The notes under the pieces: model-generated
Told to the model about the DNA's origin: nothing
Database searches by the model: none
What the model saw: only the letters and a program-made list of their open reading frames with translations
From: Pseudomonadota bacterium
GTDB taxonomy: Bacteria > Pseudomonadota > Alphaproteobacteria > Rhodospirillales > Magnetospirillaceae
DNA length: 64,000 nucleotides
Direction of reading: 5' to 3'
Assembly: GCA_021848545.1 (NCBI GenBank)
Contig: JAJZUL010000007.1
Location: 1-64,000 of the forward strand
Shown here: in pieces, positions 8,244 through 64,000 of the stretch
Layout of the letters: every line of letters begins with the position of its first letter
How positions within the stretch are numbered: the first letter of the stretch is position 1
Program-made: the position numbers and the translations under genes

Positions 8244-8806
8244 GCGGCGACCCGCGTTTCAAGCAGCGCCGTCTCTTCATTGGTCAGAAGATGGGCGAGG
8301 TCGAAGACGATGACGAAATCGTCGCCGCGGCGGCCGACGCAATCGATATAATTCGAGCGCCAGCGGATACCGATTTCCGGCGGCGGTTCGGCGCTGCCGG
8401 CGTCGAGGGCGGTGACCTCGAAGACGCGGTCGGCGAGAAGACCCAACACCATGCGCCGTTGCGGCGCGGACTCTCCATCGCCCGCATCGACGACGTCCAC
8501 GTCCAGAACCAGGATGCGGGTGTGCTCCGTCGCTTCCGCCGGCGGCAGGCCCAGCTTGATGCGAAGGTCGATGACCGGCACAGAATGGCCGCGGACATCG
8601 ATCAGCCCCAGCAGAAAAGACGGGGCGTTGGGCAGGTGCGCGATTTCGCGCGCGTCGAGGATTTCCCGAACCGTCGTGACCGGAACCGCGAAGACTTCCC
8701 GTCCCACGCCCAGCGTGACGTATTGGCCGCTTTTATCGGCCATGCCGGCTTTATCGGGGCGTTCCGCGTTCATGTCACCCATTTTCCCCTCCATCGATGC
8801 GTCCAT
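8240..8806 (-). CDS. cheW: CheW-like coupling protein (first copy)
   Basis: 188 residues with a single CheW domain. VGREVFAVPVTTVREIL, LPNAPSFLLGLIDVRGHSVPVIDLR and VLGLLADRVFEV follow the family pattern. CheW bridges MCPs and CheA in the array. The first 25 residues are poorly conserved, so the start could be any of several ATG codons. Cotranscribed with cheR. Confidence 0.92.
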   Translation of the reverse strand: MDASMEGKMGDMNAERPDKAGMADKSGQYVTLGVGREVFAVPVTTVREILDAREIAHLPNAPSFLLGLIDVRGHSVPVIDLRIKLGLPPAEATEHTRILVLDVDVVDAGDGESAPQRRMVLGLLADRVFEVTALDAGSAEPPPEIGIRWRSNYIDCVGRRGDDFVIVFDLAHLLTNEETALLETRVAA

Positions 8807-8927
8807 CGGACCTGCCGCCGAATCGCGGCGCCGGCGGCCAACGGCTGGCTTATCCGAGACATCCCGTCATCAGTAAATGATGCCCCAATTTCTTCGTACC
8901 GGCAAGTTGATCGTCCTATACGTTGGT

Positions 8928-10847
8928 TTAGTATCTTTTGAATTCTGTGTCGAAACTATCGGATATATCCCCCGATTTCGGTGCGCTCATATCCAGGGTG
9001 ACCCCGTTTTTCTTGGGTCGAATTTTGCCGTTTGGGGGGGGAATCTGGTAGCGCATGCCGTCGATTCGAACGGCGCGCGTTGCCGGCGCGGGCAGGGGCG
9101 GCGTTTGCGGAGCCCTTGACGCCCCCCTGGTTCGAGGGAGCGCCAGGGATGCGACATCATCATTGCCGACGTTGAAATAGGAGATGGTCTGCTGTAATTG
9201 CTCGGCCTGCCCCGCCAGTTCCTCGGACGTCGAAGACATTTCCTCCGAGGCCGCGGCGTTCTGCTGGGTGATTTTGTCGAGCTGCTGGATGGCCAGATTG
9301 ATCTGTTCGGCGCCGATATCCTGTTCGCGGCAGGCGGCCGAAATTTCTTCCACCAGTTCCGCCGTCCGCTTGATGTCGGGCACCAGCTTTTCGAGCATGG
9401 TTCCGGCTTCCTGGGCGACCCGCACCGTGTCCGAGGACAGGCCGCTGATTTCGGCCGCCGCCGCCTGGCTGCGCTCCGCCAGCTTGCGGACCTCGGAGGC
9501 GACCACGGCGAAGCCCTTGCCGTGCTCGCCGGCCCGGGCCGCCTCCACCGCCGCGTTCAGGGCCAGCAGGTCGGTCTGGCGGGCGATCTCCTGGACCACC
9601 GAAATCTTCTGGGCGATGGTCTGCATGGCGTTGACCGCCCGGCCGACCGCCTCGCCGCTGGTCTGGGCGTCCTTGGCCGATTGGTGGGCGATCTTTTCGG
9701 TCTGGCCGGCATTCTCGGCATTCTGCTTGATGTTGGCCGCCATTTGCTCCATGGCCGACGACGCCTGTTCGGTGGCCGACGCCTGTTCGGTGGACCCCTG
9801 GGACAATTGCTCGGCGCTGGCCGACAATTCCAGGCTGCCGGCGGCGACATTGTCGGCGGCGGACATGGTTTCGCGGACCACTTCGCCAAGCTTGCCCGCG
9901 GTTTCGTTCACGTCGGTCTTGATCTGCAGGAACATGCCTTCGTAATCGCCGGTCATTCTGAGGTTGAGATCGCCGCCGGCGATGCCGCCCATCACCGAAA
10001 TCACTTCGTTGAGGCCGGTGGTGGTGGTGTCGATCAGGCGGTTGAGGGATTCCGCCAGGGTCTTGAAGAAACCGACTTTGTCGGCTTCGGTCAGGCGGCC
10101 GCTGAAATCACCGCGCGACGCGGCGGTGACCAGGTTCGACACCTCGTTTTCGACGGCCAGTTCGGCGGTGATGTCGCCCCATTCCGTCACCACGGCCAGC
10201 AGGCGGCCATGGTCGGTGACCGGCGTGATCTGAAGCTGGAAGGTGCGGCCCCCGACCTTGATCTTCGCCAGATGGTTGCCGCTGAGATTTTCCAGGATCC
10301 GCCGTTGGTGACCCGGATTGCGGTGAAAGATGTCGATGCTGTTGCCGATGACGTTGGCCGCCGAGAAGTGGGGCAGTTCCTTGCGGATATCGGCTTCCGC
10401 CGCCGCCAGGGTGCGCAGGACCGCGGGGTTGGCGTAAACGATCTTGAGGTCGGAATCGGTGATCATGATATTGCCGTTCACCGCATCCACCGCCCGCGCC
10501 GTGCGCCGGTCGATGACGGCCGTGTCCCGCAGGCGCCGGGTGGCCGCGGCCATGACGCCCAACTCGTCGTGTCGGCCGGGGGGCAGGGCGATGTCGATAT
10601 CGGTGTCGCCGTCGGCCAATCGGTTCAGGGCGACACCGAGGGTGCGGGTCGCGCGGGACAGATCGCGGCCGATCACCGCCGCCGCGACACTTCCCACCAC
10701 CATGGCGACGCCCGACAGGACAAGGATCGGCAACCCGGCGCTCTGTCCCGCTTGAAGGGCGAGCAGGCCGCCGACCGCCGCCGCCGCGGCCAAGGCGATC
10801 ATTACACCGAAGGACAGCACCACCTTCAATGTCAGGATTGGTTTCAT
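8928..10847 (-). CDS. Methyl-accepting chemotaxis protein with HAMP and PAS domains
   Basis: 639 residues. Two N-terminal membrane segments (about 8-28 and 39-60) are separated by only a short loop, so there is almost no periplasmic sensor. A HAMP region (60-110), a PAS domain (about 115-235), a second HAMP-like stretch (240-320) and the signalling domain follow. The tip [20 protein letters not shown] is well conserved. Sensing is probably cytoplasmic through PAS. The C-terminal extension of about 75 residues is proline-rich and ends FDTEFKRY; no NWETF-type CheR-docking pentapeptide is evident. It sits between the two che gene pairs. Confidence 0.93.
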
Positions 10848-21576: not shown

Positions 21577-24500
21577 TCCGGCCGGCGGCGAAGCCAAAAC
21601 GGAATTCACCGCCGCCAGGAATTCGGCCACGTCGAAGGGTTTGGTCAGATAGCGGGCGAATCCGGCCTGCAGGCCCTCGCGGATGGCGCGCTGGGTGGCG
21701 TTGGCCGACAGGGCAATTACCGGAATGGCGCTGGTGCGCGGATCTTTCTTCAGGCGAAGAATCGCTTCCATGCCGGTCATGCCGGGCAGGTTGATGTCGA
21801 GAACGACGACGTCGGGCTGGGCGATGTTGGCGATCTCGAGTCCCGCTTCGGCGGTCGCCGCCGTCAGCAGGGAAAACTGACCGTATTCCGCCGCGATATC
21901 GCGCATCAATTGAAGATTTTCAAGGTTATCCTCGACGTAAAGCATGCGCCGGGTCGGCGCCTCGTCGGGTTTCCGTCCGCGCGAGGAGGACAATGTCGGG
22001 GCCGATCCGGTCGCCGTGTCGGCGGCGGGGATTTCAATCCAGAAGCTGGACCCTTGGCCCGGCCGGGTTTCGAAGCCGATGCGGCCATTCATGGATTCGA
22101 TCAGGCGTCGCGCGATGGTCAGGCCCACGCCCGTTCCTTCGATATCGGTCGCCTCCGCTCCCAGGCGGTTGAACGGCTCGAACAGGAAGTGCTGCTTATC
22201 CGCCGGGATGCCCGCGCCTTCGTCGGTCACGATGAAGCGGACGACATTGCCCGTGCCAGGCTCCACCGTCAAAAAAACATTTCCCCCTGGTGAATTGTAT
22301 TTGACGGCGTTGGAGGTGATGTTGAGCAGAACCTGCCTTATACGGGTATCGTCGGCCCGAATTTGATCGGGAACACCCTGAGAAATTCGCCAGTCTTGAA
22401 CCGAAACGTTCATTTTGGCGGCATAGCCGCGGGTAGTGTCGAGGATTTCCTGAAGCAGGGGGGGAATCTCTACATCGCTGATCGACAGGGGCATCTGCCC
22501 CGATTCGATCCGTGCCAGATCGAGGACTTCGTTGATCAGCCTGAGCAGGTGCTGGCCGCTCAGACGCACCTGTTCGGCATAGCCCAGCGCCCGGCCGGAA
22601 AGCGGCTGGTCGGGGTTGTTTTCCAGCAATTGGGCGAAGCCGAGAATGGCGTTCAGGGGGGTCCTGAGTTCATGGCTCATCGATGACAAAAAGTCGGATT
22701 TGGCCTGGTTGGCCTTGTCCGCCAACTCCTTGGCCAGACGCAATTCACGCTGGTGACGTTCCAGCGTGGTCAAGGCCTCGCGCAACGACGCCTCGGCCGA
22801 TTGCCGCTCGACGATTTCCTGTTGCAGGCTTCGGGTCCTTTCCTCCACCCGGTTTTCCAGGTCGTCGCGGGCTTGCCGCAATTGCTCTTCGGCCTGTTTG
22901 CGCTCCACCACCTCCGCGGCCAGGGCCGCGTTGCTGCGGCTGATGTCAACGGTCCGCGCGCTCAGGGTTTCGTAGAGCAGGCCGTTGCGCAAGTAACCGC
23001 CGATTTCACCGGCAAAGGTTTCGAGGAAGGGGCGGCCCCGCAACAACGCCTCGCCACCGTCGCGGGTTCCCACCGCCAGCGCGCCGACGATCGTCTCGCC
23101 GCGTCCCAGCGGCAAAGCGACCACATGGTCGATATTTTCGGGCATAGGGGAAGTTCCGGCCGCCCCGAGAACGGAATCGTCCGAGGAAAAGGTCCGTCCG
23201 CTATCCAGAGTCATGCGGCCGAGGCTTTCGCACAGAGCCAGTCCCTTCCAGTCGTCCGGTATGGCGGTGCCGTCGCCGCGCCGGCCGCCGCGCAAAGCCA
23301 GCCGGTCGTCCGCCCCTTTCAGCAACAGCAGCGCCACTTCCCCGCCGGTCGCGGCCAGGGTCTCGTCCAGGGCGATCTCCACCAGGCGCTCGATCGAGGT
23401 GGTTTCGGTCATCCGCCGGCCGAGACGGTGGAGATGGGCGATTTCCGCCGAGCGCTGTCGTTCGATGGTTTCAGCGCGGCGAAGGTCGCCGACATCGCGC
23501 AGACAGGCCACGATCAGCGGTGTTTCGCCGTCGCCGGCGGTGAACAGGCTGGCTTCGGTGAGGAAGGAAGCGCCGTCGCCGCGCCGTCCGCCGATATCCA
23601 GGCGCCGTTTGCGCCCGCCGGCAAGGCTGGCCAGCGCCGCCGGTCCGCTCAGGTTGCGCTGGATGTCCTTGGGCAGGGGGGTCTGGTCGATGGGATGGCC
23701 CAGAACCTTGTCCGTCGGAAGCGCCAGGATGCGCTGGGCGGCGGCGTTGAAGGCCTGCACGGTGCCATCGGCCGATACGGCGATGAAGGCGTCGGACGTC
23801 CCGTCGACGATGGCGCGCAGGCGGGATTCGCTTTCGGCCAGCCGCGCGCGCTTTTCGCTCAGCCGCAAGTAGGGATCGCGGATCACCGCCAGGAACAGGC
23901 CCCGGTACAGAAAGGCGAAGGCGATGACCTTATAGACGTGGCCGAGCACGTTGTAGACGTCGGTGGGGGCGGAATAGAGGGTGAAAAACAGCTCGGACAG
24001 GGCCATCACCCACGCCGCGCCCATCATCCACAATCGTTCCGGCACGTCCCGTCGCCGTATCAGGATCAAAATGGTGGCCGCCAGCAGGGCGACGACCGCG
24101 TATTCGGTATCGATCTTGAACGCCGTAAGGCCTTGGCCGCGGATGAAGGTGGCCGGCAGGCTGCTCAGATGGAACAGGATGGCCCAAGTGAACAAGGCGA
24201 CGATCAGGAGCACCGATCCCAACATGAGCGGCCGTATCGCCCGGTGACGGAACGGCCGCCAGGGCAGGGCCGTGGCCACCAGAAATCCCATGGCCTGGAG
24301 AATGCGGGCGGCCAGCCAGAAATCGATGCTTTTGGGATTGCCGGACGGGGTAATGTAGGAGGGCATGCCCGGATAGGACAGGCTGTGCTGAAGGTCGAGC
24401 AGACCGACGCCGAGAAAGGCGACCGCCAGGATCGCCAGATTGCCGGGTCGGTCCCCATCGAACGCATGCCATCCCACCGAAAAAATGAGCATCGACACGA

Positions 24501-24756
24501 TGACCGCGAACAGTTCGGCCAATTGGTGGAAAACAAGGAAGGATGCCGGGTCGGGTAGAAGCGGCGAACCGGCCACCAACGGCACGAACAGGAAAAGAAC
24601 CGTAAGGGCCGCCGCCAGCCAAAGAGCCGCCGTACCGTCACCTCGTCGGCCGCCCAGTTCAAAAACGAACCCTGTTTCGCCGTTCAAATTGGCCTCCGGG
24701 GTGGACAGACCAGAGTCGAACACGTATACGACCGCCGGATCAATCGATCGAGGCAT
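21571..24756 (-). CDS. MASE3-PAS-GAF hybrid histidine kinase
   Basis: 1061 residues. The N-terminal 320 residues contain seven or eight hydrophobic segments with LLDLQHSLSYPGMPS, as in the MASE3 membrane sensor. A PAS domain (about 325-450) and a GAF domain (460-590), a coiled coil rich in Glu and Arg (590-680), HisKA with H695 in SMSHELRTPLNAILGF, an HATPase (GTGVGLTIA) and a receiver (VVVLDINLPGMTG) follow. It probably senses a membrane-associated or small-molecule signal and passes phosphate through its own receiver. An upstream GTG or ATG could add about ten residues. Confidence 0.92.
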   Translation of the reverse strand: MPRSIDPAVVYVFDSGLSTPEANLNGETGFVFELGGRRGDGTAALWLAAALTVLFLFVPLVAGSPLLPDPASFLVFHQLAELFAVIVSMLIFSVGWHAFDGDRPGNLAILAVAFLGVGLLDLQHSLSYPGMPSYITPSGNPKSIDFWLAARILQAMGFLVATALPWRPFRHRAIRPLMLGSVLLIVALFTWAILFHLSSLPATFIRGQGLTAFKIDTEYAVVALLAATILILIRRRDVPERLWMMGAAWVMALSELFFTLYSAPTDVYNVLGHVYKVIAFAFLYRGLFLAVIRDPYLRLSEKRARLAESESRLRAIVDGTSDAFIAVSADGTVQAFNAAAQRILALPTDKVLGHPIDQTPLPKDIQRNLSGPAALASLAGGRKRRLDIGGRRGDGASFLTEASLFTAGDGETPLIVACLRDVGDLRRAETIERQRSAEIAHLHRLGRRMTETTSIERLVEIALDETLAATGGEVALLLLKGADDRLALRGGRRGDGTAIPDDWKGLALCESLGRMTLDSGRTFSSDDSVLGAAGTSPMPENIDHVVALPLGRGETIVGALAVGTRDGGEALLRGRPFLETFAGEIGGYLRNGLLYETLSARTVDISRSNAALAAEVVERKQAEEQLRQARDDLENRVEERTRSLQQEIVERQSAEASLREALTTLERHQRELRLAKELADKANQAKSDFLSSMSHELRTPLNAILGFAQLLENNPDQPLSGRALGYAEQVRLSGQHLLRLINEVLDLARIESGQMPLSISDVEIPPLLQEILDTTRGYAAKMNVSVQDWRISQGVPDQIRADDTRIRQVLLNITSNAVKYNSPGGNVFLTVEPGTGNVVRFIVTDEGAGIPADKQHFLFEPFNRLGAEATDIEGTGVGLTIARRLIESMNGRIGFETRPGQGSSFWIEIPAADTATGSAPTLSSSRGRKPDEAPTRRMLYVEDNLENLQLMRDIAAEYGQFSLLTAATAEAGLEIANIAQPDVVVLDINLPGMTGMEAILRLKKDPRTSAIPVIALSANATQRAIREGLQAGFARYLTKPFDVAEFLAAVNSVLASPPAGS

Positions 24757-40122: not shown

Positions 40123-40147
40123 GCGTCGGTCAGGTCTGCGATTTAGA

Positions 40148-40376
40148 GCGACGCGCCTGAAATCTGAAACGTCTGGTTCAATCTTGGACGCGTCGCTCCA
40201 GCGAGCATTGAGCGAGCGGCCAAGCGCGCGGACGCGCGCGCCCGGCGAGGGCTAAATATAGCGACGCGCCTGAAATCTGAAACGTCTGGTTCAATCTTGG
40301 ACGCGTCGCTCCAGCGAGCATTGAGCGAGCGGCCAAGCGCGCGGACGCGCGCGCTTAGGCAGAGGGCTAAATATAA
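40148..40376. repeat. Tandem duplication of a 113-bp unit
   Basis: A unit of 113 bp at 40148-40260 is repeated at 40261-40376. Each begins GCGACGCGCCTGAAATCTGA and contains an inverted repeat GCGACGCG / CGCGTCGC around a short AT-richer core, then a GC-rich stretch of CGCG runs. The two units differ only in the last 25 bases. It lies between the lipoprotein and the cNMP-domain gene. It may form hairpins in RNA; no coding function is apparent. Confidence 0.9.
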
Positions 40377-41500: not shown

Positions 41501-41836
41501 ATGGATGAGGCCGGGGATAATCGGCGGGACGACGAGGTTCTGGGCGCGCGCTTGCGCGAAGCGAGTGGCTCCGATGACGATCTCGACCGGGCCGTCGCCG
41601 TGTCGTTCGCCGTTTCCGATGGCGATTACACCGCTTCGACGGAGCGGGCGCGCGACCTGGTGGCCAAGGCGTTGCCGGACTGGCGGTTGCATGTGGGCTT
41701 CAATGCCAGCGGCGTCATGCCCTATGCCGCTTTGTCCCGTGACGGTCGGCATGTGGAAGCCGCGGCGCCGACCCTGCCTTTGGCCATTCTGCGGGCGGCA
41801 TGGTCGGCGCGATTCGAGAACGGCAACGAGGGTTAG
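41501..41836 (+). CDS. Small soluble protein of unknown function (111 residues)
   Basis: 111 residues, acidic N-terminus, with a globular part ending PTLPLAILRAAWSARFENGNEG. A strong GGAGG site is present six bases before the ATG. I recognise no named family; the VAKALPDWRLHVGF to ILRAAW segment resembles small phage-related proteins of about 100 residues. Its TAG stop codon is the first three bases of the MITE-like repeat. Confidence 0.7.
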   Translation: MDEAGDNRRDDEVLGARLREASGSDDDLDRAVAVSFAVSDGDYTASTERARDLVAKALPDWRLHVGFNASGVMPYAALSRDGRHVEAAAPTLPLAILRAAWSARFENGNEG

Positions 41837-41998
41837 CCCGATCTATTCATGGGGCCGCGAGGTGATGGCGCCGGGATTTGATTTGGATGGGATTTTTCGC
41901 GGACGCCGCCAATACTCCAGTATTGGCAAGGCCGCAAAAAGCCCAGGCGGATCAAAGACCAAGCCAGCGCCCGCCGGAACCGTGAATAGATCGGGTTA
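41834..41998 (+). repeat. Palindromic MITE-like repeat, complete copy 2
   Basis: 165 bp with terminal inverted repeats TAGCCCGATCTATTCATGG and (reverse complement of right end) TAACCCGATCTATTCACGG. The whole element folds as one long imperfect hairpin with its apex at 41909-41926 (CCAATACTCCAGTATTGG). Compared with copy 1 the apex differs but the pairing is kept. Its two ends contain the stop codons of the gene on each side, the 111-residue gene and pncC. There is no open reading frame. Confidence 0.9.
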
Positions 41999-60918: not shown

Positions 60919-60995
60919 GGCGGAGTAGCTCAGCTGGTTAGAGCAGCGGAATCATAATCCGCGTGTCGGGGGTTCAAGTCCCTCCTCCGCTACCA
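60919..60995 (+). tRNA. tRNA-Met (anticodon CAT)
   Basis: 77 bases ending in encoded CCA. Acceptor arm GGCGGAG pairs with CTCCGCT, a D-arm with AGCTCAGCTGGTTAGAGCA, an anticodon stem GCGGA/TCCGC around loop ATCATAA with CAT at the centre, and a T-arm GGGGG-TTCAAGT-CCCTC. The sequence type is the elongator methionine tRNA; a tRNA-Ile(lysidine) with CAT is the alternative. It is the likely attachment target of the adjacent integrase. Confidence 0.93.
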
Positions 60996-61039: not shown

Positions 61040-61074
61040 CTTGTTTTCCAAATCAGTCCGGCTTGTTTTCCAAA
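61040..61074. repeat. 13-bp direct repeats at the integrase 3' end
   Basis: CTTGTTTTCCAAA occurs at 61040-61052 and again at 61062-61074, spaced 22 bases, just inside the attachment-side end of the element. Such short direct repeats near a tRNA-integrated end can be arm-type integrase sites. This role is inferred. Confidence 0.6.
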
Positions 61075-62129
61075 ATCTCGTTCGTCTGCTGTTCCAGAAG
61101 GGCTATTGCCCGAGCGGCGCGACGCGATCGATCGGCGTGTCTGGCGTAGTGAATCGCCATAGCTTCTGTCGTGTGGCCGAGGGTGGCGGCGATATCGCGA
61201 GTGTCACCCCCCGCATCGGCGATCCACGTCGCCAGCGTTACACGCAGTCCGTGGAACGTAAGGCCGGGGGAAACGGCGCCCGTCGCGGTCAATTCACGAA
61301 TGATTTTGAAGAAGCTGGCGCGGAATCCGCTTTCGGTGAAACCTCTGCCGCGGCGGTTGATCACCAGGGGGGCGTCCGGAAGACGGGGCAGGCGCGCGAT
61401 TTCCGCGTCCAGGACGGCCTTAAGTGCTGAGTGGGCAGGTATCTGTACCAAACCATCCGTCTTGCCCTGGCGCCCGCTTATAGTGGCTCCATCGTAGCAA
61501 TGCCGTTTGAGGCGGCAGACGTCACCCTCGCGCCATCCCGCGAAGAGTGCCAAGGCCATCGCCACTCGCAGGTGATCAGGCATGGCCTCGTAAGCCGCGC
61601 GGATCTCGGGAGGCGACCACGGGCGGTTGATGGTCGGCGCCCCTTTCGGCCGCCGCACTTTCTGTTCTTTGGTGACCGGATTGCCGTGAGGAACCTTTCC
61701 GCTGGCGCTCCCTACGGTCCATGCCCGCGAGATGGCCGCCAGGACGTAATTGGCGAAGCGGCGCTTGTGTCGGGCGAAGGCTTTGTTTCTAATCTCCATG
61801 ATCGATGCCGGTACCATTTTCGTCAGCGGCATGCCGTCCAATGGGGCCAGATAATCCAGAACCCGGAGGTAATCGGCGCGGGTGCGCGGGGCGAGTTGAT
61901 TCCATTCGGGAGAGGATCGCCAATAGGTCACGAGCCAGCCCCAGGTACCCGGTATTTTCGCGTCCTCTGCGGGGATGGCCAATACAGCGGCCCGGAGGGC
62001 GCTGATCTCGGCGACAAATTCAGGTGTATCGGGAGCGGCGCTGATGCGCCGTCCGGAGACGCGGTCGTAAAAATATACCGCGCCGTTCCGGCCTCTGGTC
62101 TTCTTGATGCCCTTAATGCGGACGATCAT
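61053..62129 (-). CDS. Tyrosine-type site-specific integrase
   Basis: 358 residues. Catalytic residues R200 (AGWREGD), H293 and R296 (TFHGLRVTLA), H319 (LGHTT) and the nucleophile Y328 (AIHYARHAD) are all in place. The N-terminal 60 residues are a short arm-binding-like domain. It points into the tRNA-Met gene 58 bases away, the usual arrangement for an integrase whose att site is the tRNA 3' end. The ATG overlaps the stop of the upstream small gene (ATGA at 62126-62129). Confidence 0.94.
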   Translation of the reverse strand: MIVRIKGIKKTRGRNGAVYFYDRVSGRRISAAPDTPEFVAEISALRAAVLAIPAEDAKIPGTWGWLVTYWRSSPEWNQLAPRTRADYLRVLDYLAPLDGMPLTKMVPASIMEIRNKAFARHKRRFANYVLAAISRAWTVGSASGKVPHGNPVTKEQKVRRPKGAPTINRPWSPPEIRAAYEAMPDHLRVAMALALFAGWREGDVCRLKRHCYDGATISGRQGKTDGLVQIPAHSALKAVLDAEIARLPRLPDAPLVINRRGRGFTESGFRASFFKIIRELTATGAVSPGLTFHGLRVTLATWIADAGGDTRDIAATLGHTTEAMAIHYARHADRSRRAARAIALLEQQTNEILENKPD

Positions 62130-62374
62130 TCCAGCTTTCCGATCCACTCATCCTCTGGGGGCGCCCCGGAAAGCCCACTTATCCATTCGTCGATTTTCTG
62201 GCGGTCAAAAAGCGTGCGGCGTACGACCTTGTCGCCGCGCCGAAGCGGAATTGGTTTTACCGGGCATAATTGGGCAAAGAGGGGCGCTGAAATTCCACAA
62301 TAGGCCGCTGCCAGTTCCGAAGACAATAGTCGCGGCCAGTCGGGCAACGGCCAATCGCTAGGAGGCTTCGGCAT
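62126..62374 (-). CDS. Small HTH/excisionase-like protein
   Basis: 82 residues. LLSSELAAAYCGISAPLFAQ is a helix-turn-helix pattern of the MerR/AlpA/excisionase type, then RRGDKVVRRTLFDRQKIDEWI, the usual C-terminal wing and helix of such proteins. It sits between the reverse transcriptase and the integrase and is coupled to the integrase start. It may control excision direction or transcription of the element. It could start at a GTG at 62386. Confidence 0.75.
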   Translation of the reverse strand: MPKPPSDWPLPDWPRLLSSELAAAYCGISAPLFAQLCPVKPIPLRRGDKVVRRTLFDRQKIDEWISGLSGAPPEDEWIGKLE

Positions 62375-62376
62375 GG

Positions 62377-63525
62377 CTACCGGCACCGGATATAGGGTGG
62401 ATTCATGTCCGTCGCTTCGGTGTGCTCCCTCTTCATCTTGATCTTGGTTAGCCCCTTGTCGAGCTTGAAGCCACGTTGATGGGCGCCCCGAGCGATGGCT
62501 ATGATTTGCGCGCGGCTGCCGGTGTGACGGTAAAGACCGAGGTAGGAATTGCAGCTGGCTATGAAGTCAGGATTGGGCATTGCCGCCAGGCGCCGGATGG
62601 CCACGCGGTGGGTTTTCGGGCGCCCCGATCGCCTGTGGGGGCGAATGATGTGGCCGACGAAGTCAACGCCCTTGGCGGCGTCGGCGATAAAGGTTTTCGA
62701 TTCGGCCAGCGCCAGGCCGATGGTGGCGAGGTGCGCGCGGATGGCGTCGGCCGCCGCCAGCAGCACCTTCGGTTCGCGGTGGATCATCACCATGTCATCG
62801 ACGTAGCGGACATAGGGCAGCCGGAGGCGGCGCTTAATCATCTGGTCGAGCGGATCCAGGTACACATTCGCGAAGAACTGGCTGCTGAGGTTGCCGATGG
62901 GCAGTCCGATACCGGGTGCTGTCTGGAACAAGCTCTTGTGGGGCGGCACGCGCGCCATGTCCTTCGGGCGCCCGCGCAGGATCGCGTCCTGGCGCACGTC
63001 CTGGAACACCAGCTTGCGGCACAGATCGAGCATGGTGGGGTCCTTGACCTTGTATGCCAGCGTGGAGAACAGGTCGGTGTGGCGAATCGATCCGAAGAAG
63101 TTGGCGATATCGGCCTTAAGCACAAAGGCCGGCTTGCTCCAATTTTCTGTGGCCGAGCGGAGATGGCGCGCCAGCCGGTCGGCGGCGTAGAGAGTTCCGC
63201 GGCCCTTGATGCATGCGCAGCTGTCGGCGATGAAGGATGGCTCAAAAAGCGGCGCGATGGCACGGTAGACCAGATGGTGGACAATGCGGTCGCGGAACTG
63301 GGCTGCCCACACCTCGCGCGGCTTAGGTCTGGTAATGGCAAATACCGAAGCCGGCGCCGGCGACCAGGTTCCCGCCTGCAGCTCGGCAAGTAGGCCCATC
63401 AAGTTATCTTCAAGGTTAACCTCGAAGGCCAGTGCCGATCGCGTGGTGCGCTTGTGGCGACGGCAGTCGTAATATGCCTCGAAAAGTTCGGCCACGGTGA
63501 TTCTGGATGGTTGGAGGGTGATCAT
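62377..63525 (-). CDS. Reverse transcriptase of a diversity-generating retroelement
   Basis: 382 residues. Motifs in order: RPKPREVWAAQFRDRIVHHL (RT0-1 region, 67-86), LKADIANFFGSIRHTDLF (137-153, with the first catalytic Asp), GLPIGNLSSQFFANVYLDPLD (motif 4, 207-227; the SQ after GNLS is the DGR mark, where retrons and group II introns usually have QGxxxSP), YVDD at 241-244 with the two catalytic Asp, and a short thumb ending VGHIIRP. There is no maturase or endonuclease domain. The ATG (63523-63525) overlaps TGA of the template-repeat reading frame. It is followed after two bases by the HTH gene. Confidence 0.93.
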   Translation of the reverse strand: MITLQPSRITVAELFEAYYDCRRHKRTTRSALAFEVNLEDNLMGLLAELQAGTWSPAPASVFAITRPKPREVWAAQFRDRIVHHLVYRAIAPLFEPSFIADSCACIKGRGTLYAADRLARHLRSATENWSKPAFVLKADIANFFGSIRHTDLFSTLAYKVKDPTMLDLCRKLVFQDVRQDAILRGRPKDMARVPPHKSLFQTAPGIGLPIGNLSSQFFANVYLDPLDQMIKRRLRLPYVRYVDDMVMIHREPKVLLAAADAIRAHLATIGLALAESKTFIADAAKGVDFVGHIIRPHRRSGRPKTHRVAIRRLAAMPNPDFIASCNSYLGLYRHTGSRAQIIAIARGAHQRGFKLDKGLTKIKMKREHTEATDMNPPYIRCR

Positions 63526-63650
63526 TTGCGGACGGCCCGGACCCGGCACTCGGCGCTCTTGTTGTTGTTGTTCTGGTTGCCGTTGTTGAAGTTCTGGATC
63601 CACGCGTAGCCGGACGCGTCGGGGGTATACAGGCCGGGCCGGCGATTGCC
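63526..63650 (-). repeat. Template-repeat-like adenine-rich region of the DGR
   Basis: On the minus strand, the segment 63558-63597 contains nine AAC codons among fourteen (read as QNFNNGNQNNNNK), and the translation continues SAECRVRAVRK to a TGA at 63522-63524. AAC-rich codon tracts with the text AWIQNFNNGNQNNNNK...RVRAVR are the typical form of DGR template repeats for Lcl/DUF1566-like variable proteins, because adenines are the mutated positions. The clear core is 63526-63611; the left and right limits of 63526-63650 are estimated. The frame in which it reads is open from 63872, but that long frame looks non-coding before the tract. Confidence 0.8.
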
Positions 63651-63841
63651 GATCGACGAGAAGGCGTCGCGCCTCCGCGCCGGGGCATCGACGCCGGCCA
63701 AGCTGCGCCGGGACGCGCGGGGAGCAGAAGCCGCCGTATCCCTGGTGGCGCGTGGAGCGACGATCTGCGGGCTTCGCCAGCGCGCCGCCGCTACCCCGAC
63801 CAAATGATGCGCACGGGCGCGAAAGCCGTGACCTTCGGGCA

Positions 63842-64000
63842 TCAGGCGCGACTCCTGGCATAGCTCAGCCATCCCGCCGCCTGTTTGCCGATGGCGTCGG
63901 TCAGTTCCACCGTGGCCGAGAAGGGGCCCGAGGAAATCAGGTGCAGGTCCCAGGAGAGCCGCAGCAGTAGCCGCAGGGATTCCAGGTGGTCCTGCAGATC
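63842..64000 (-). CDS. Avd-like DGR accessory protein, C-terminal part (runs off the window)
   Basis: The last 52 residues of a minus-strand gene whose start lies beyond 64000. It reads LLLRLSWDLHLISSGPFSAT, then a helix ending IGKQAAGWLSYARSRA, the form of the last helices of the Avd four-helix bundle, which binds the RT and template RNA and is needed for mutagenic homing. It lies about 190 bases upstream of the template repeat, the same order as the Bordetella phage DGR (avd-TR-RT). The identification rests on about 50 residues plus context. Confidence 0.78.
   Translation of the reverse strand, partial: DLQDHLESLRLLLRLSWDLHLISSGPFSATVELTDAIGKQAAGWLSYARSRA

Follow-up and report, generated by a model that had tools for sequence, protein, structure and literature searches.

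We describe a diversity-generating retroelement (DGR) whose target genes belong to the repressor-to-integrase arm of a prophage and not to its tail module, the usual site of action of such cassettes. The stretch of DNA analyzed, hereafter the window, comprises 64,000 nt (contig positions 1–64000) of a genome of 3.17 Mb in 85 contigs. Judging from the sequence, positions 62377–64000 are very probably the reverse transcriptase (RT) end of a complete, probably working DGR with two targets, carried by this prophage. Relatives of the element are already in print; its setting is the less expected part. The features of the cassette and its surroundings are listed in Table 1.

Table 1 Features of the DGR and the adjoining prophage arm, in contig numbering, which is also that of the window
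Feature	Position	Strand	Description
tRNA-Met	60919..60995	+	Likely attachment site
Tyrosine integrase of the prophage	61053..62147	−	Family matches
Small regulator beside the integrase	62126..62386	−	phrog_25900, E 4.5e-5; excisionase-like by position only
DGR reverse transcriptase	62377..63522	−	Open frame, 381 aa; ATG directly at the template 3′ end
Template repeat (TR)	63523..63613	−	91 nt; eight AAC codons in the frame of the targets
avd	63842..64195	−	117 aa; 3′ part (63842..64000) inside the window, rest past the window end
Hairpin after VR1	64218-64239	−	Between variable gene 1 and avd
Variable gene 1	64254-64814	−	186 aa (176 if started at an internal ATG); Lcl_C (DUF1566); variable repeat VR1 at 64264-64357
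ParB-like genes	64845-65678 and 65939-67852	−	Between variable genes 1 and 2
Hairpin after VR2	68102-68122	−	From the scan for stems
Variable gene 2	68136-68702	−	188 aa; Lcl_C (DUF1566); variable repeat VR2 at 68148-68236
RelE-like toxin and HTH regulator pair	69322-69926 (L010:7823-8427)	+	Between the repressor and variable gene 2
Repressor-like frame	70267-70983	−	Upstream of variable gene 2

RT, template and Avd of the cassette

A preliminary description of this DNA had proposed, on the minus strand, the order avd, TR and RT, and the positions of the genes and the repeat bear this order out. Both RT motifs that it named are present, each one residue away from where it had been placed: IGNLSSQ lies at residues 209–215 (not 210–216) and YVDD at 240–243 (not 241–244). 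IGxxxSQ in RT motif 4 is a mark of DGR-type RTs. Among solved structures, the best match of the RT was 8UB7 (E 1.8e-31), presumably the Bordetella phage DGR RT, with group II intron RTs next (best, a group IIC RT, 5e-14); grouping with retrons or group II introns, the outcome held to speak against a DGR, was thus not seen in this ranking. The protein also matched Pfam RVT_1 and PHROG 1423 (E 1.3e-95), and motif, PHROG and solved-structure ranking together identify the 381-aa product as the DGR-type RT that had been predicted. PHROG 1423 contains DGR RTs (PMC12774648). In a search of its own genome, the RT gave a single match.

The Avd-like C-terminus noticed at 63842–64000 proved to belong to a longer gene that continues to 64195. 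Its frame scored 46.4 bits against Pfam bAvd (cut-off 40) and matched the PHROG ‘Avd protein of DGR’ at 4.4e-25, and it reached 49.6 bits with the NCBIfam Avd model, under the cut-off of 80 for that model. By Pfam and PHROG, the accessory protein of a DGR is therefore present as Avd.

Two target genes differ from the template at adenines only

The preliminary description had placed the variable gene outside the window and proposed searching the genome for near-copies that differ at template adenines, at the 3′ end of a CLec- or DUF1566-type gene. With template DNA from 63500–63720 as the query, this search returned, besides the template, two strong copies, both on the template's contig, at 64264–64357 and 68140–68236 (E 6.7e-26 and 5.4e-25); the DNA match that followed stood at 0.027. 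VR1 and VR2 form the 3′ ends of genes past the window end that match Lcl_C at 48.0 and 47.8 bits (cut-off 34.9). The target type was thus as foreseen, with two targets in place of one. The AAC-rich template is likewise real, with eight in-frame AAC codons instead of nine and an extent of 63523–63613 instead of 63526–63650.

Both copies differ from the TR at adenines only. VR1 showed mismatches at 12 of 29 A sites and at none of 65 other sites, allowing for one extra AAC codon, and VR2 at 11 of 27 A sites and none of 62 others, as seen in one snapshot of one genome. If mismatches were placed anywhere, the chance that all would fall on A is 3.6e-7 for VR1, with the extra AAC counted in the template, and 1.1e-7 for VR2. 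Each VR is followed, 24–25 nt on, by a 9-bp GC stem with a TTCG or TGT loop, as expected of a DGR hairpin; the same scan found none after the TR. The published consensus is a GC stem of 7–10 bp with a GRNA loop, 4–34 bp from the VR (PMC3240598).

If the cassette behaves like that of the Bordetella phage, TR RNA would be copied by the RT together with Avd, with errors at template adenines, and the resulting cDNA would replace the 3′ end of either Lcl_C gene beside the hairpin-marked site, so that the tip of each protein would vary.

TR and VR1 differ in length by one codon within the AAC run (63523–63613 versus 64264–64357). Such changes occurred in 7/129 distinct pairs, made up of 5/119 pairs plus L121 twice among 10 new pairs, at our own VR1, L037, L121, L047 and L068; the VR was the longer in six of the seven. 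We considered them as a new mechanism and rejected this: the changes are real, but insertions and deletions in AAC repeats have been described earlier (PMC12875486, citing older work). The one-codon offset, like the broken target relative that is all phage D3 retains, would fit a relic that has stopped mutating. We regard that as quite unlikely, since open frames are kept for the RT, avd and both targets, YVDD is intact, and the repeats combine the A-only pattern with zero other mismatches.

Adenine-directed variation in related cassettes

One scan each of genomes and viral contigs yielded 22 and 67 related-RT loci, respectively, including duplicate records of one prophage; a close RT (E 1e-60 or better) occurred in 10 of 119 genomes, our own included. 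At least one TR/VR pair was found in 73/89 loci with an A-bias filter applied, at the cost of probable additional VRs in L014, L020 and L068. Pooled filtered pairs carried mismatches at 1510/3814 A sites and 158/8887 others, figures that reflect pre-selection for A-bias (131/182 hits kept) and alignments running into flanks; in the unfiltered control, A was the commonest mismatched template base in 134/136 repeats (≥75 nt, ≥5 mismatches). Among close target pairs, VR identity was lower than that of the preceding 300 bases in 26 of 27 non-identical pairs, some of them duplicate records. At L012, L037 and L077, target bodies were 96–98% identical and TRs 100% (gaps not counted), with VRs at 83–89%; divergence of the VR beside a near-identical body and TR suggests that mutation in this lineage is recent.

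The A-only copies, Avd, the hairpins and the RT relatives together support the identity of the element as a DGR. A retron, group II or defense RT accompanied by chance repeats would have in its favor the NCBIfam matches, each well short of its cut-off, to Drt and group II families. This explanation has next to no probability left: in our view the two A-only target copies refute it, and both the first rank of 8UB7 and the dominance of A in the unfiltered repeats run against it.

In an RT tree of 79 rows, our RT grouped with L034 (100/94) within a 10-row alphaproteobacterial clade (99/100). The DGRs of Magnetospirillum magneticum AMB-1 fall in the same clade, provided that L077 and L122 are that strain, which we take them to be. 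All 17 VR rows of this clade, two of which repeat one prophage, have an 8–10-bp stem. Across all clades, the stem beat the best of its own 30 shuffles in 58/133 VR rows and in 6 for TR flanks, and many beta- and gammaproteobacterial VRs showed no hairpin by the scan; we therefore rejected the hairpin as a general rule.

A sister RT clade is associated with a single long, tail-fiber-like target, in contrast to the short targets here. It comprises 17 tree rows (95/83), or 20 loci when duplicates and L100, assigned by its target from outside the tree, are counted; 14 of these have one VR and six have none. On a mechanical ORF list, whose lengths include wrong frames and inflated starts, 11/14 of its targets exceed 500 aa; the reliable set is the 14 annotated phage targets, of 118–220 aa. 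Three loci of the tail group (L078, L082 and L094) have a Baseplate_J match upstream on the strand of the RT. Outside the tail-target group, with L097–L099 omitted, two or three VRs were present in 53 of 66 loci, one in four and none in nine (filtered count). Of these nine, five are short of upstream sequence (at most 702 bases); L017, L018, L025 and L057 have enough and still yielded none.

Predicted fold of the variable proteins

Variable protein 2, modeled with AlphaFold2 from 20 aligned sequences (mean pLDDT 91.1, pTM 0.86) and searched with Foldseek, is predicted to have the Lcl_C fold. Among solved structures, the best match was the C-terminal domain of Legionella Lcl (PDB 8Q4E; E 8.7e-5, TM by target 0.72), followed by a Bacteroides fimbrial protein (5.0e-4); other solved matches, with E >0.1, were largely C-type lectins. 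Viral models that matched were DUF1566 phage proteins, a tail fiber protein and others. The VR thus lies at the 3′ end of a target gene with a predicted C-type-lectin fold, as in DGRs. The Legionella domain shares the modeled fold but is part of a collagen-like adhesin, whereas here it would be a stand-alone phage protein. The solved relatives named here are all of adhesin or lectin type, and no homolog with a known intracellular function was found.

N-terminal hydropathy of the 20 aligned targets gave no clear sign of a signal peptide or membrane stretch, by a crude check in which the highest target, that of a relative, scored 2.13 against 2.58 in a single control. This argues against non-classical export of the targets to the lysogen surface, where they would alter which phages or particles bind. 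We consider such export unlikely, even though Lcl is named a collagen-like adhesin and cellular DGR targets are mostly membrane-anchored (PMC8144416).

The targets lie in the repressor-to-integrase arm

The prophage adjoins tRNA-Met and extends past the contig end; the contig holds no second att copy of at least 18 nt of the tRNA-Met region, only one 16-nt match. Along the minus strand, the order is repressor-like gene, variable gene 2, two ParB-like genes, variable gene 1, avd, TR, RT, small regulator and integrase. The plus strand of the prophage encodes terminase, portal, protease, major head, sheath, tape measure and baseplate proteins, and the prophage is of the temperate myophage type. 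Both targets are outside the tail module, unlike in a BPP-1-type DGR.

We opened six annotated phages with RTs 45–50% identical (Magia, Cruim01, phPA-G, QDWS, Haboob and LPPA56), leaving out two further records in this range without usable annotation at the match. An integrase lies downstream on the strand of the RT in all six, and in four the annotation places a repressor upstream on that strand (LPPA56 is unannotated there, and in QDWS the position falls outside the stretch read). In the unfiltered test, these phages gave 14 TR/VR pairs, in which 181 mismatches fell on A and 10 on other bases; five further short rows were matches among VRs and TR. Cassette neighbors include RecT, Bet, SSB and methyltransferases; QDWS adds a host nuclease inhibitor, and phPA-G a Lar-like protein for restriction alleviation.

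More broadly, of 14 viral records with coordinates for the integrase, 12 have it downstream on the strand of the RT; in L052 it lies 37 kb upstream, and in L056 it is on the opposite strand. Outside the tail group, 23/27 viral records had an integrase and 1/27 Baseplate_J, compared with 0/6 and 3/6 in the tail set (Fisher 1.9e-4 and 0.014); the tail set consists of five tail-group records plus the outgroup L097, the fragments are not independent, and coordinates cover 14 of the 23 integrase records. In seven further cassettes of relatives, an integrase lay 1.1–3.7 kb downstream on the same strand in five (two repeat L037 and L077); none was listed near L121 and L124.

Phage early arms commonly carry anti-defense and exclusion genes. 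Our tentative reading is that the targets may act inside the cell, against host defenses or rival phages: position, small single-domain size and the lack of an obvious signal peptide suggest intracellular action, and the usual content of early arms, together with the cassette neighbors, suggests proteins of defense systems or rival phages as what is bound. The Lcl_C targets would then be fast-changing cytoplasmic binders. More tentatively still, a DGR lineage of temperate phages might diversify small cytoplasmic lectin-fold proteins from the early/lysogeny arm, sampling binders of defense or rival-phage proteins in an antibody-like manner.

It is possible, though doubtful, that both targets are instead virion adhesins of the tail tip or decoration type, encoded in the early arm by happenstance, and that the DGR shifts the range of hosts, as it does in BPP-1. 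A tail protein is what the proven phage DGR diversifies, the adhesin-type structural relatives count in favor, the sister RT clade has long tail-fiber-like targets, an early-arm position is compatible with a product in virions, and the authors of the Magia announcement suggest a host-range role (PMC7883833). However, the targets are without the long N-terminal parts found in tail-clade targets, they lie on the strand opposite to the head and tail genes here and to the tail genes in three of the six annotated phages, where in view (Magia, Cruim01 and QDWS), and all six phages have two or three paralogous targets per cassette.

Should the whole RT lineage diversify early-arm proteins and not tail fibers, what the targets bind would become testable in a laboratory lysogen, and phages would possess a means of recognition inside the cell that is hypervariable. 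According to a 2018 survey by Benler et al., most targets of phage DGRs are without a known function (PMC6199706).

Comparison with published DGRs

A-specific change, Avd and a hairpin after the VR are shared with the DGR of Bordetella phage BPP-1. That system, as described, has one tail-fiber target and a GRNA hairpin loop (PMC3240598), whereas here there are two targets, with loops TTCG and TGT. The 2018 survey reported BPP-1-like tail fibers in five phages and unknown targets in the rest, the phage targets being without signal peptides (PMC6199706), and Roux et al. describe viral targets as tail-structural or unknown (PMC8144416). DGR-based immunity, cytosolic binders included, has already been proposed for cells (PMC10053308). 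In open-licence PubMed Central, of which coverage was partial, we found no description of early-arm phage DGR targets.

For M. magneticum AMB-1, Table 2 of DiGReF gives two DGRs, each with two VRs (PMC3521204), the same number of VRs per RT as here; that entry gives an RT with two VRs, and neither setting nor targets. Burkholderia phage Magia resembles our prophage in its RT (50% identical), avd, short Lcl_C-like targets and repressor-to-integrase arm. Its announcement gives genes 47 and 57, both short frames, as the targets (PMC7883833). By the same A-only test, we add a third, gene 46 (L101, 12517–12607), with 11 A and no non-A mismatches.

Phages Medea1 (L107) and Aurca01 (L108) each carry, at 8274–9582, paired DUF1566-type genes in the place of the cassette, with no RT in the stretch read. 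In phage D3 (L109, AF165214), Orf68 (24081–24641) adjoins cI on the integrase side and is related to the variable proteins (BLASTP E 3e-9); its variable-end part is in another frame, and the 36-kb stretch read contains no related RT. Within the window itself, a tandem pair of 98-nt repeats, 99% identical and 113 apart, lies at 40144–40354, and a 128-nt inverted repeat (1–128 and 41833–41960) is 97% complementary across 41.7 kb.
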